This document shows, piece after piece, positions 11,982-44,339 of a stretch of DNA of 45,655 bases. Both the position numbers and the translations under genes were made by a program. Position 1 is the first letter of the stretch. Each line of letters begins with the position of its first letter. The notes under the pieces are model-generated. The model did no database searches, was not told the DNA's origin, and worked only from the letters and a program-made list of their open reading frames with translations. Source of the stretch: an uncultured Trueperaceae bacterium (GTDB lineage: Bacteria; Deinococcota; Deinococci; Deinococcales; Trueperaceae); the NCBI GenBank assembly GCA_913057165.1, contig CAJXNS010000009.1, forward strand, positions 1 through 45,655, read 5' to 3'.

Positions 11982-12339
11982 TGGTGGAGGCGGCGGGAAT
12001 CGAACCCGCGTCCGAGACCCCCTTCGCCCGGCGTCTACGCGTGTAGTTCTCAATTCAATTGTCGGGCCTGCAGGCTGGGTGAGAACGCCCGACCCGAGGC
12101 CTTAGCTCCCTAAAGTCTCGCCTTCGGTCCGGGGGCGGTGACCGTCAGCCAGTCGGTATTGGGACGTTCGATCCGGCGAGCCACCGACGGGGCTTCCGGG
12201 GAACGCTGACTACGGGTTACGCAGCCAGAGCGTAGTTTTGGTTGCCAGTTAAGGCGTTGCAGTTTGATGACGCGGCCAACTGCGTCCGCGACGCGCAACC
12301 GGTGCGTTGGACGGGCCCCGTCGAAGCCAGGACGCCCCC
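11982..12339 (-). ncRNA. ssrA: Transfer-messenger RNA (tmRNA)
   Basis: About 358 nt. The 5' end GGGGGCG pairs with the 3' acceptor CGCCTCC (one G-U), followed by ACCA. The 5' segment has CTGGCTTCGACGGGG, and the T arm GCGGGTTCGATTCCCGC is complete. The tag frame (12246-12217) reads GGC AAC CAA AAC TAC GCT CTG GCT GCG TAA, giving GNQNYALAA after the tRNA-borne Ala. It rescues stalled ribosomes and marks the product for proteolysis. One-piece (not permuted) form. The leader between the likely promoter near 12390 and the mature 5' end contains a GCCAAGG/CCTTGGC hairpin. Confidence 0.97.
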
Positions 12340-17894: not shown

Positions 17895-17902
17895 CTTTCG
17901 CC

Positions 17903-18023
17903 CCTATCTTCCCGAACCGGCCGCCATCGTAGCGGCCATGAACGGCTGGATGGAGCACCCACGGATATGACCATCGGTTGCCGCAGGGTCATCGGGCCAG
18001 GTCCCTCACCTGCTCTTGATAGG
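17903..18023 (-). ncRNA. SAM-I (S-box) riboswitch aptamer
   Basis: Minus-strand leader of metYX. P1 is CCTATC (18023-18018) with GATAGG (17908-17903). The core has ATCAAGAG, then GGTGAGGGACCTGGCCC and CGGCAACC, then GGGTGCTCCATCC, the GGCCGC/GCGGCC P4 hairpin, and a closing GGGAAGAT, in the S-box order. SAM binding stabilises P1 and lowers expression of methionine genes. No T-run terminator follows, so control is probably translational (see the sequestering helix below). Confidence 0.95.
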
Positions 18024-18042
18024 TGGAACCCAGCGGGTTCCA
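18024..18042 (-). other. Hairpin at the very 5' end of the metYX transcript
   Basis: TGGAACCC-GCT-GGGTTCCA forms a perfect eight-pair stem directly before the riboswitch and immediately after the predicted transcription start near 18043. Could protect the 5' end or prevent misfolding of the aptamer. Confidence 0.65.
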
Positions 18043-18222: not shown

Positions 18223-18356
18223 CGGAATTTTGTCGGGCTTGGGCGTGCCGTGACGGGCGGAACGTCGCCCCGGGGTGGCCGTGATACCGTTGGCGTTCCC
18301 GCCGGCGTAACGCGGTGGCGACCCCCGAACCTGGTCAGGCCGAGAGGAGCAGCCAT

Positions 18357-18445
18357 AAGGGGTGCTCGTCAGGTGCCGTTGCGATCCGGCGGGTTTTTTG
18401 ATGGTCGTCCTGAGGACCTGTTGGCGGCCGTGATGCCCGCGGTGT
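18357..18445. other. Short gap downstream of rel with a T-run
   Basis: Between the rel stop and the longer frame of the prepilin-like gene. The plus strand has GCCG-loop-CGGC followed by GGGTTTTTTG (about 18374-18400), a weak terminator shape but pointing along the plus strand, where no gene ends. Confidence 0.3.
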
Positions 18446-42314: not shown

Positions 42315-42875
42315 TTAGCTGCGGTTCGCCAGCCATTCTTCTTCGGCGGAGAAGACATCGCAAAACCACCGGCTGAGCATGGGAACCGCGTCGCTGGCCA
42401 TGGCGGGCGGCACATGGTCTTTCGCCCACGCTTCGGCTTGGTCTTCGGTGTCGAACGGGCCGATCATGGCGGCCTGCTGGCCGTCCCAGCTCTCGGGTGG
42501 GGTGGGCAGCAACAGTTCACGGTGTTCGCCGCGCAGGTCGTTGACGGTTCGGTAGAACGCAAACGCTTCCTTGAAGCTGGCGTGGTTGATCAGGTGGGCC
42601 AGGCGGGTATCGATTGCCGCCAGTGTCTCGCGGCTGGGTTCAGGCTCAATGTAGAGGCGGGTTCGTTCTCCTTGACGGACTTGGTACACCTCGGCGTCAG
42701 GCATGACGTCCCAAGCGACTTGGGCGGCGGCGTCGGCAAGCGATGGGTGGGCGTCCAGCAGAACAGCCGCGTGAAGCATGCGGTAGCGAACAGGATCCTC
42801 GCGGCGCAAGGTATCGAGATCGACACCCAGATCGGCCGCGCGCGCTTCGGCGCGCTTGCGTGCTGCGTCGCTCAC
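42315..42875 (-). CDS. Hypothetical protein (186 aa)
   Basis: A 186-residue soluble, fairly acidic protein. I recognise no catalytic family. Residues 1-45 are helical ([19 protein letters not shown]), then [15 protein letters not shown], a beta-like [19 protein letters not shown], and a C-terminal [19 protein letters not shown] that resembles a SPOR-type GPFxTxxxAxxW pattern. The ATG overlaps the aminotransferase stop (ATGA), so it is co-translated with it. No signal peptide or membrane segment, so the SPOR likeness does not place it at the cell wall. Confidence 0.75.
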
Positions 42876-44038
42876 GCTGGCGTGGCAACCGCCTCGTCGT
42901 AGGCGGCCTCAAACCGTTCGACCAGACCGGGCGAGCCGAGCATGCCGCCGAGAACGTCCATAAACCGCCGGTAGTGCTCACGGTGGGCGGTTTCACCCAT
43001 CAGCCCAAGTCGCCAGATCCGTCCGGCTGTGGGGCCGAGCCCACCGGTGACGCTGATGTTGTGCTGTTCACGCATTTGCTTGCGCATGGCCGCGTCATCC
43101 AAACCGGGCGGGAGGGTGACGGCCAGCACGGTTGGCAGGCGCCATTCGGCAGGAATAAACGGAGCGAAACCCTCCGGGGCCAGGGTGTCAAGGATCGCGC
43201 TGGCGAGATGGCGGACGCGCTCAGCTCGCGTTTCAAGACCTTCCTCGAGGGCGGCTTTGATCGCTTCACCCGTGGCCCAATGCAACTGCACGGGGATGGT
43301 GTGGTGGTAGCTGCGTGGCTGGCCCGGATCCCAGTAGGCCTGCATACCCACCGCATCGGCGTACCAGGTGGCCACCGGCGTTGTGCGGGATGCGACCTTC
43401 TCCATGGCCCGGCGGCTGTACACCACGGGTGCCAGACCGGGCGGGGCGGACAAACACTTTTGTGAACCGGTGTACGCGTAATCAATACCGAGTTCATCCA
43501 TGCTGAACGGCATCATGCCGACCGTGGTGACCGCATCGACGCTGAATAGGGCACCTGAAGCACGCACCACGTCGGCGATTGCCTCGACTGGGTTGATGAC
43601 CCCCGTGCTGGTCTCACCGTGGACCACCGCAACCACGTGCGGCTGAAAAGCGTCGATCGCGTGTGCAACGGCGGCTGGGTCGATGGGCTTCCCAAGTTCG
43701 GCGTCCACCGACCGCACGTCGGCACCTAAACGCTGACCCATCTCAACCATCCGGCGTCCAAACACGCCATTGTTGGCAACGAGGAGCCGTTCGCCTGGCT
43801 CGAGCAGGTTGGCAAGCCCGGCTTCCATACCGAGCGATCCCGTGCCTGAAAGCAAACTCGCGAACGCGTCCTGCGGTGCGCCGTACAGCTTTTTGAGGTC
43901 TTCGACAATGCCGTCGTTGTAAGCGAACACATCGGGGTCCATGTGCCCGCGCATGGGCCACTGCATGGCCGCGAGCGCCCGGGGGTGGATTGGGGTGGGC
44001 CCGGGGGTCAGTAGCAGGACTTCGCCTTGCGGTTTCAT
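42872..44038 (-). CDS. Class V aminotransferase, serine/alanine-glyoxylate type
   Basis: A 388-residue PLP enzyme starting at ATG 44038 with GAGGAGG upstream; the longer frame to 44086 adds only a low-complexity leader. [61 protein letters not shown] and the Schiff-base Lys in [15 protein letters not shown] define the alanine-glyoxylate/serine-pyruvate aminotransferase group (photorespiration-like or serine cycling). Exact donor (Ser or Ala) is not readable. It is preceded by a leader with a mini-ORF and terminator, suggesting attenuation, and coupled to a hypothetical gene. Confidence 0.93.
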
Positions 44039-44125
44039 GCGTGCCTCCTCATTCGTAGCGACGGGCGACGGTGGGGGTGTGACCAAGAAAAACGACCCAT
44101 CCGCATTGGAGGGCCGTCAAAAAGC

Positions 44126-44142
44126 GGACGCCGAAGGCGTCC
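44126..44142 (-). terminator. Intrinsic terminator inside the aminotransferase leader
   Basis: Minus strand: GGACGCC-TTC-GGCGTCC-GC-TTTTT (T-run 44123-44119). It lies between the promoter and the aminotransferase start, so it would end the transcript early rather than finish a gene. Confidence 0.88.
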
Positions 44143-44145
44143 TGG

Positions 44146-44172
44146 TCACGAAGCTCGTGCGCTGCGCGTCAT
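44146..44172 (-). CDS. Leaderless 8-residue leader peptide (MTRSARAS)
   Basis: ATG 44172 sits exactly six bases after the -10 TATACT, so the transcript would start at the codon. It reads Met-Thr-Arg-Ser-Ala-Arg-Ala-Ser and stops at TGA 44148-44146, four bases before the terminator stem. Its last codons lie in a perfect CACGA-GCT-TCGTG hairpin (44159-44147). The layout is that of a transcription attenuator, with Ser and Ala codons before a Ser/Ala-type aminotransferase; regulation is unproven. Confidence 0.5.
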   Translation of the reverse strand: MTRSARAS

Positions 44173-44178
44173 GACATA

Positions 44179-44207
44179 AGTATACGCACGACTGAATCGC
44201 AATGCAA
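44179..44207 (-). promoter_or_regulatory. Promoter of the aminotransferase unit
   Basis: Minus strand: -35 TTGCAT (44207-44202), 17-bp spacer, -10 TATACT (44184-44179). It is divergent from the rimP promoter, about 37 bp away. Confidence 0.78.
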
Positions 44208-44243
44208 ACACGGCTGCCGCGTTATTTCGCGCGCAGCGGGTCG

Positions 44244-44273
44244 TTGCGAGATAACGGCCGTAACGGCTATACT
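44244..44273 (+). promoter_or_regulatory. Promoter of the rimP-nusA operon
   Basis: -35 TTGCGA (44244-44249), 18-bp spacer, -10 TATACT (44268-44273), giving a leader of about 100 nt before rimP. Confidence 0.78.
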
Positions 44274-44282
44274 TGTGGGCGG

Positions 44283-44339
44283 TAGGTCATCCTGAACGTC
44301 AAGGGTGGGTTCGCAGAGCCCGCCTTTTTCATTGACCTA
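44283..44339 (+). ncRNA. rimP leader: nested hairpin with terminator-like U-run
   Basis: An inner stem GGTGGG/CCCGCC (44304-44309 with 44319-44324) is followed by TTTTT (44325-44329), forming an intrinsic terminator in the rimP leader. An outer helix TAGGTCA/TGACCTA (44283-44289 with 44333-44339) encloses it perfectly. Terminator-like leaders before rimP-nusA are known in many bacteria and are linked to NusA-dependent control; the outer helix could be the competing anti-terminating fold. Confidence 0.72.

Follow-up and report, generated by a model that had tools for sequence, protein, structure and literature searches.

What does the short open reading frame (ORF) do that precedes a class-V aminotransferase gene in an uncultured Trueperaceae bacterium? 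The locus lies on a stretch of 45,655 nt, here called the window (contig CAJXNS010000009.1 of assembly GCA_913057165.1). A preliminary description, made from the sequence of the window, had recognized an attenuator-like arrangement with a leaderless peptide, a pause-like hairpin, and a strong terminator, and had related the Ser and Ala codons of the peptide to the enzyme class. We consider it rather likely that the locus is a ribosome-operated transcription attenuator with a CGA-GC(U/G) leader, and that it belongs to a conserved set in Deinococcota that was not listed previously. We regard it as a new attenuator of a known general kind, probably ancient, with an unusual codon-pair sensor.

The Leader Locus of the Window

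On the minus strand, the -10 box is followed by the leader ORF, a hairpin (H1), a terminator (T2), the GGAGG motif, and the aminotransferase gene:

44179..44208, minus strand: promoter with -35-like TTTGCA (44208-44203), 18-nt spacer, and -10 box TATACT (44184-44179), identified from the sequence
44146..44172, minus strand: leader ORF ATGACGCGCAGCGCACGAGCTTCGTGA, encoding MTRSARAS*, with homologous short ORFs upstream of orthologous genes
44152..44157, minus strand: conserved codon pair CGA (44157-44155) GCT (44154-44152), Arg-Ala, from alignment and codon counts
44126..44142, minus strand: hairpin H1, GGACGCC-TTC-GGCGTCC, 7 bp, starting exactly 15 nt past the C of CGA
44085..44117, minus strand: terminator T2, ACGGCCCTCCAATGCGGATGGGTCGT and TTTTTCTT, U-tract 44092-44085, counterpart of the conserved Trueperaceae terminator
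44044..44048, minus strand: Shine-Dalgarno sequence GGAGG of the structural gene, identified from the sequence
42872..44038, minus strand: class-V aminotransferase, 388 aa, assigned by sub-cut-off NCBIfam matches and PDB matches

Rfam detected three ordinary features elsewhere in the window at gathering score:

17901-18025, minus strand: SAM riboswitch
11982-12339, minus strand: tmRNA
18299-18395, plus strand: small SRP RNA

There was no Rfam match to the leader locus at gathering score, and the search of relatives at E ≤ 1 gave one weak match only, located elsewhere.

The leader codons are ATG ACG CGC AGC GCA CGA GCT TCG TGA, and the ORF occurs once in its own genome. The sequence TATGTC separates the -10 box TATACT from the leader ATG (44172-44170). 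Since the ATG is only 6 nt past the -10 box and hence at the expected transcript start, the window leader is apparently leaderless. The anatomy as first described, with promoter, ATG at the predicted start, the eight codons MTRSARAS, hairpin, and terminator, was confirmed by the sequence. In sequence scans of 3.66 kb, promoter-like sites (2 found versus 0.7 expected) and terminator-like sites (4 found versus 4.2 expected) occurred near chance, and the whole leader folded slightly better than shuffled sequences (z = -1.29). The case for the feature in the window therefore rests on conservation.

The preliminary description had suggested a comparison with relatives. This comparison recovered the ORF, the CGA-GC(U/G) pair, and H1, but not the Ser codons, the pause hairpin, or the reported terminator. 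The pause-like hairpin over the last codons, a 5-bp CACGA/TCGTG stem, was present in the window genome only and absent from relatives. The hairpin with GCTTTTT (44125-44119) directly 3' of H1, which had been taken for a strong terminator, does exist in the window genome, and the H1 of the window may also act as a terminator, given this T-run. In relatives, a non-terminator hairpin occupies the H1 position, where the terminator had been placed. The conserved terminator is T2, which lies mostly outside the span reported before, and GCTTTTT as the key terminator was rejected in its favor.

The gene encodes a class-V aminotransferase (fold type I) of the alanine/serine-glyoxylate/pyruvate type. 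The best PDB match was 2yri/2yrr, "Aminotransferase, class V" (2.7e-94), which we take to be a Thermus protein. It was followed by alanine-glyoxylate aminotransferase 1vjo (2.3e-78), and serine-pyruvate aminotransferases were also among the next matches. Every NCBIfam match was under cut-off, with PhnW-AepZ as the top one, and a search for literature on the structure of the Thermus enzyme found none.

The divergent rimP-nusA transcript (window 44244-44335, plus strand) also opens with a hairpin and T-run, GGGTGGGTTCGCAGAGCCCGCCTTTTT, ahead of rimP. The rimP-side hairpin is visible upstream in many Trueperaceae as well, and this recurrence points to a conserved leader terminator that may be a NusA feedback element.

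Distribution of the Leader in Deinococcota

We compared the upstream regions of relatives of the window genome, of 36 named contigs, and of the Meiothermus/Thermus family; true Deinococcus genomes were apparently absent from the searched set. In the recurring unit, a -10 box was followed after 6-9 nt by a start codon, and the ORF, usually of 7-11 codons with a stop codon, by a hairpin, a terminator, and the aminotransferase gene. In most relatives, the -10 box had the form TANNNT and was located 6-9 nt ahead of the leader start codon.

The leader ORF preceded the orthologous gene in each of the 47 Thermaceae genomes for which the upstream region was seen (43 by script, L124 and L126 by eye, plus L125 and L127). 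It was also present in one Marinithermaceae-type genome (G038, leader L033), in three Deinococcales metagenome-assembled genomes (MAGs; L025, L026, L029), and in most Trueperaceae. Examples are MRFSARATL* in Meiothermus, MRPSARAIL* in Calidithermus, MRLLRAIR* in Thermus, MRLFVRATP* in the Marinithermaceae-type genome, MLLTARA* in Deinococcales MAGs, and MIGAPLRAS* in a genome that we take to be Truepera radiovictrix. The proposed attenuator architecture with an apparently leaderless ORF was supported, and the ORF is kept in frame across the phylum. Genome G038 also harbors at least 13 copies of a repeat, AGCTCGGGGAGTCCTCAGTCGGCTTCATGGCAGAACCAGACTA (e.g., at C1:54312), which is probably an insertion sequence or another mobile repeat.

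Homologues from two actinobacterial MAGs (L061, L077) and from two family-f2 genomes (L024, L027) had no leader upstream. The leader was lost in one Trueperaceae clade, g11 (L010, L012, L040), and in genome G007 (L011). In the g11 clade and the same-genus genome G001 (L044), leader ORF and U-tract terminator were lost together, and just a short untranslated region was left.

A pattern scan for similar leaders in seven genomes resulted in 80 matches. Among the loci fetched, 30 of which were assessed by script and the remainder by eye, the in-frame pair in a short ORF occurred solely at the aminotransferase leaders L082, L088, and L105, so that the leader looks gene-specific. A regulon of similar leaders at other genes was dropped as an idea, since the fetched non-aminotransferase loci had no in-frame pair in a short ORF.

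Conservation and Decoding of the Arg-Ala Codon Pair

The 44 distinct leader ORFs shared CGA followed by GCU or GCG (Arg-Ala) and nothing else. CGA was present in 43 of them, and when 19 sequences were aligned, CGAGCT was the sole invariant block. CGA lay 12, 15, 18, 21, or 99 nt from the start codon, and the pair was in frame at every one of these distances. Codon usage in 15 sampled copies of the aminotransferase gene was different: CGA represented 27 of 428 Arg codons (6%) and GCT 85 of 830 Ala codons, and GCC, with 428 of the 830 Ala codons, was never found at the leader pair.

The earlier emphasis on Ser and Ala codons applied in part. One Ala codon, GCU or GCG, is fixed, but Ser varies across the leader ORFs, and the other fixed codon is Arg CGA; a Ser/Ala codon run was accordingly rejected. 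An enrichment of the leader in codons for pathway amino acids was not found in the 44 ORFs. In Truepera sp. bin119 (L018/L053), UGA ACU replaces CGA-Ala with unchanged spacing to the hairpin; termination may here substitute for the slow codon, or this leader may be in decay.

The Arg tRNAs of the Truepera radiovictrix-like genome (45 tRNAs) and of a complete Thermus genome (47 tRNAs) had the anticodons ACG, CCG, CCT, and TCT. A tRNA with TCG anticodon was found in neither of the two genomes, and CGA must therefore be decoded by tRNA-Arg(ACG). The ACG tRNA-Arg of bacteria is normally inosine-modified (PMC3711424), and it presumably carries inosine at position 34 here as well. Read solely by this tRNA, CGA would be a slow codon.

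Hairpin H1 and the Leader-Terminator Helix

Across the leaders, the distance from CGA to the start of H1 is about 15 nt. A bacterial ribosome reaches forward by roughly 15 bases, counted from the start of the P-site codon, and this geometry fits a P-site CGA with the Ala codon in the A site. Automatic calling of the H1 start was noisy, with ACC/GGU pairs extending the H1 base in Thermaceae, and mask profiles were therefore used for the spacing. With a mask to CGA+15, 81% of the folding energy was left (sd 0.10), and with a mask to +21, 58%, the drop being steeper past CGA+15. The scatter was larger when the mask was anchored on the stop codon (sd 0.16 versus 0.10 for the CGA anchor).

This spacing bears on a classical alanine attenuator, in which GCU/GCG senses charged Ala-tRNA and CGA merely holds the ribosome. 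In its favor, an empty A site at the Ala codon is the best match to the H1 position, many leaders carry 2-4 Ala codons, and the enzyme is an aminotransferase of the alanine/serine type. However, a single Ala codon stands at a fixed position in each leader and is the only Ala in several of them (MRLLRAIR*, MKMGRAT*), cognate codon runs are usual in classical leaders, and CGA is conserved more strictly than the Ala codon, which is either GCU or GCG. We regard alanine sensing of this classical kind as possible but not probable.

Leader codons 2-5 double as the 5' terminator arm in Thermaceae, in the Marinithermaceae-type genome (L033), and in the Deinococcales MAGs. In L068, AUUCUCCGCU pairs with AGCGGAGAAU-UUUUUUU, the bases just ahead of the U-tract, and in L026, CUUCUGAC pairs with GUCAGAAG-UUUUUUU. 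Pairing between the ORF and the region preceding the U-tract was matched by 0-8 of 200 shuffled sequences in 10 of 11 Thermaceae/Deinococcales leaders tested, the exception being Calidithermus L070 (29 of 200). The U-tract is poor in some Thermus species. In 12 Meiothermus-type leaders, 95.8% of the cells of the long helix and H1 were paired, with double changes in 10 of 30 pairs. None of 500 shuffles was as good, and slid versions were far worse, a control that is biased toward the helix because the structure was derived from the same sequences.

When a ribosome was modeled as a mask to CGA+15 in leaders of the Thermaceae, Marinithermaceae-type, and Deinococcales groups, the long helix between ORF and terminator was unable to form. 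Pausing at CGA-GCU would therefore keep leader codons 2-5 from acting as the 5' terminator arm and so block termination. With a modeled mask to the stop codon, H1 was broken, and its 3' arm made a short terminator in L035, L038, L066, and L073.

The Terminator of the Trueperaceae

The terminator of the Trueperaceae is a separate hairpin approximately 27-52 nt past the leader stop codon, with the sequence (A/G)AUGACC...GGUCGUUUUU in many members and GGGACC...GGUCCC in others. This hairpin, T2, folded in all modeled ribosome states, also in the window. Pairing of the ORF with the terminator in the window was equally good in 168 of 200 shuffles, and an own-versus-other test in Trueperaceae gave no significant signal for coevolved pairing of the ORF to either the terminator or the sequence that follows it.

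These data have to be weighed against an opposite or other logic in the Trueperaceae and the window, by which a ribosome at the stop codon breaks H1 and the H1 3' arm competes with the T2 5' arm. With the stop-codon mask, these arms did pair in several Trueperaceae (in the window, GGCGUC with GACGGCC). However, this pairing was weaker than T2 itself, and T2, which stayed in the minimum-energy fold, was at least as stable in most members. Such a logic appears doubtful to us. A pause at CGA-Ala beside H1 is probably still the input in Trueperaceae.

Evidence for Translation of the Leader ORF

In the lengthened leaders L113, L118, L119, L120, and L016, the pair stays in frame and adjoins H1, and the distance to the promoter varies. 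Four of these are Meiothermus leaders with insertions of different design: in L118, a single in-frame ORF runs from the ATG next to the promoter, L113 has two ORFs joined by an ATGA overlap, L119 uses an in-frame GTG start, and the start of L120 is apparently Shine-Dalgarno-led. As the Arg-Ala codons track the hairpin and not the promoter, they appear to be read by a ribosome and not to belong to a promoter-linked protein site, which argues for real translation of the leader ORF.

CGAGCT could instead be bound by a protein or an RNA, or belong to an aptamer, with the ORF being incidental, since the same letters form an invariant nucleotide block. We consider this improbable: the block is in frame at five start distances, moves with H1 and not with the promoter in the lengthened leaders, differs in structural context between Thermaceae and Trueperaceae, and has no counterpart in Rfam. 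A boost of downstream translation by reinitiation, with the hairpins as mere spacers, has been proposed as a role for short leader genes, Deinococcus-Thermus included (PMC4833913), and is highly improbable here, as about 70-230 nt with a terminator in between separate the leader stop from the gene start and conservation of the codon pair would be unneeded.

Discussion

The ribosome would start on an AUG that coincides with the RNA 5' end or adjoins it, and make a peptide of usually 7-11 residues, of which only the codons CGA-GC(U/G) would be under selection. It would pause while CGA occupies the P site and the Ala codon the A site, and its leading edge would just reach H1. Where the leader codons make up the 5' terminator arm (Thermaceae, the Marinithermaceae-type genome, and the Deinococcales MAGs), the paused ribosome would cover this arm while H1 is folded, resulting in readthrough (ON). 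If the ribosome has finished or was never loaded, the long helix between ORF and terminator would form, or in some leaders alternatively a helix of the H1 3' arm with the terminator, and transcription would stop (OFF). The Trueperaceae, including the window, share ORF, codon pair, and H1, followed by the self-contained terminator T2. Transcription of the enzyme gene thus probably depends on whether the ribosome slows on the Arg-Ala pair. The signal is most likely the supply of Ala-tRNA or of Arg-tRNA(ICG), with no preference for either.

With attenuators of the trp/leu/his/ilv type, the leader has in common a short ORF, predicted competing hairpins, an intrinsic terminator, and an amino-acid enzyme downstream. 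It differs in having one fixed pair, CGA-GCU/GCG, in place of a cognate run, and, in Thermaceae and two other families, in that the leader codons themselves serve as the 5' terminator arm. In attenuation of the pyrBI type, the ribosome on the leader physically blocks the terminator, and the input is UTP-dependent pausing of RNA polymerase. Prevention of the terminator by a ribosome would be common to both; unlike in pyrBI, the ribosome itself would pause here, at the codon pair.

A leaderless attenuator peptide, which the preliminary description did not know from a described attenuator, had been reported earlier. Streptomyces lividans has the leaderless attenuator peptides LeuL1/2, TrpL1/2, IlvL, ThrL, and MetL (PMC8079986), and the trpL RNA of Sinorhizobium meliloti begins with ATG (PMC7298713). 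The present leaders resemble these in the attenuator role and in the AUG at the 5' end of the RNA, both of them predicted here, and differ in phylum, genes, and codons. In S. lividans, AlaL (MNVIGRNIFATARATSSPVAAA) is located upstream of alaS and comprises six Ala codons (PMC8079986); its "ARAT" may be a coincidence. In Deinococcus-Thermus, ORFs with a -10 motif directly before the start codon, the layout seen here, make up about 30% on average, according to a study that mentions neither leader peptides nor small ORFs nor attenuation (PMC12340547). A description of the CGA-GC(U/G) leader was not found in the open-access literature. Scans for cognate runs would miss such a leader, since it is defined by a codon pair and not by amino-acid runs.

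In its widest form, the finding would be a phylum-wide attenuator that, instead of counting cognate codons, brakes the ribosome by means of one inherent, inosine-dependent rare pair, CGA-GCU/GCG, with the leading edge meeting H1 and the body masking the terminator arm, and that reports CGA decoding by I34 tRNA-Arg or Ala-tRNA; we put this forward only tentatively. The conserved leader points to an old regulatory element that has been kept before one enzyme across Thermus, Meiothermus, Calidithermus, and Trueperaceae. The leader would provide a testable system for the coupling of leaderless initiation, rare-codon pausing, and termination in tractable organisms such as Thermus, and it gives a hint of the physiological role that this poorly defined class-V enzyme plays.
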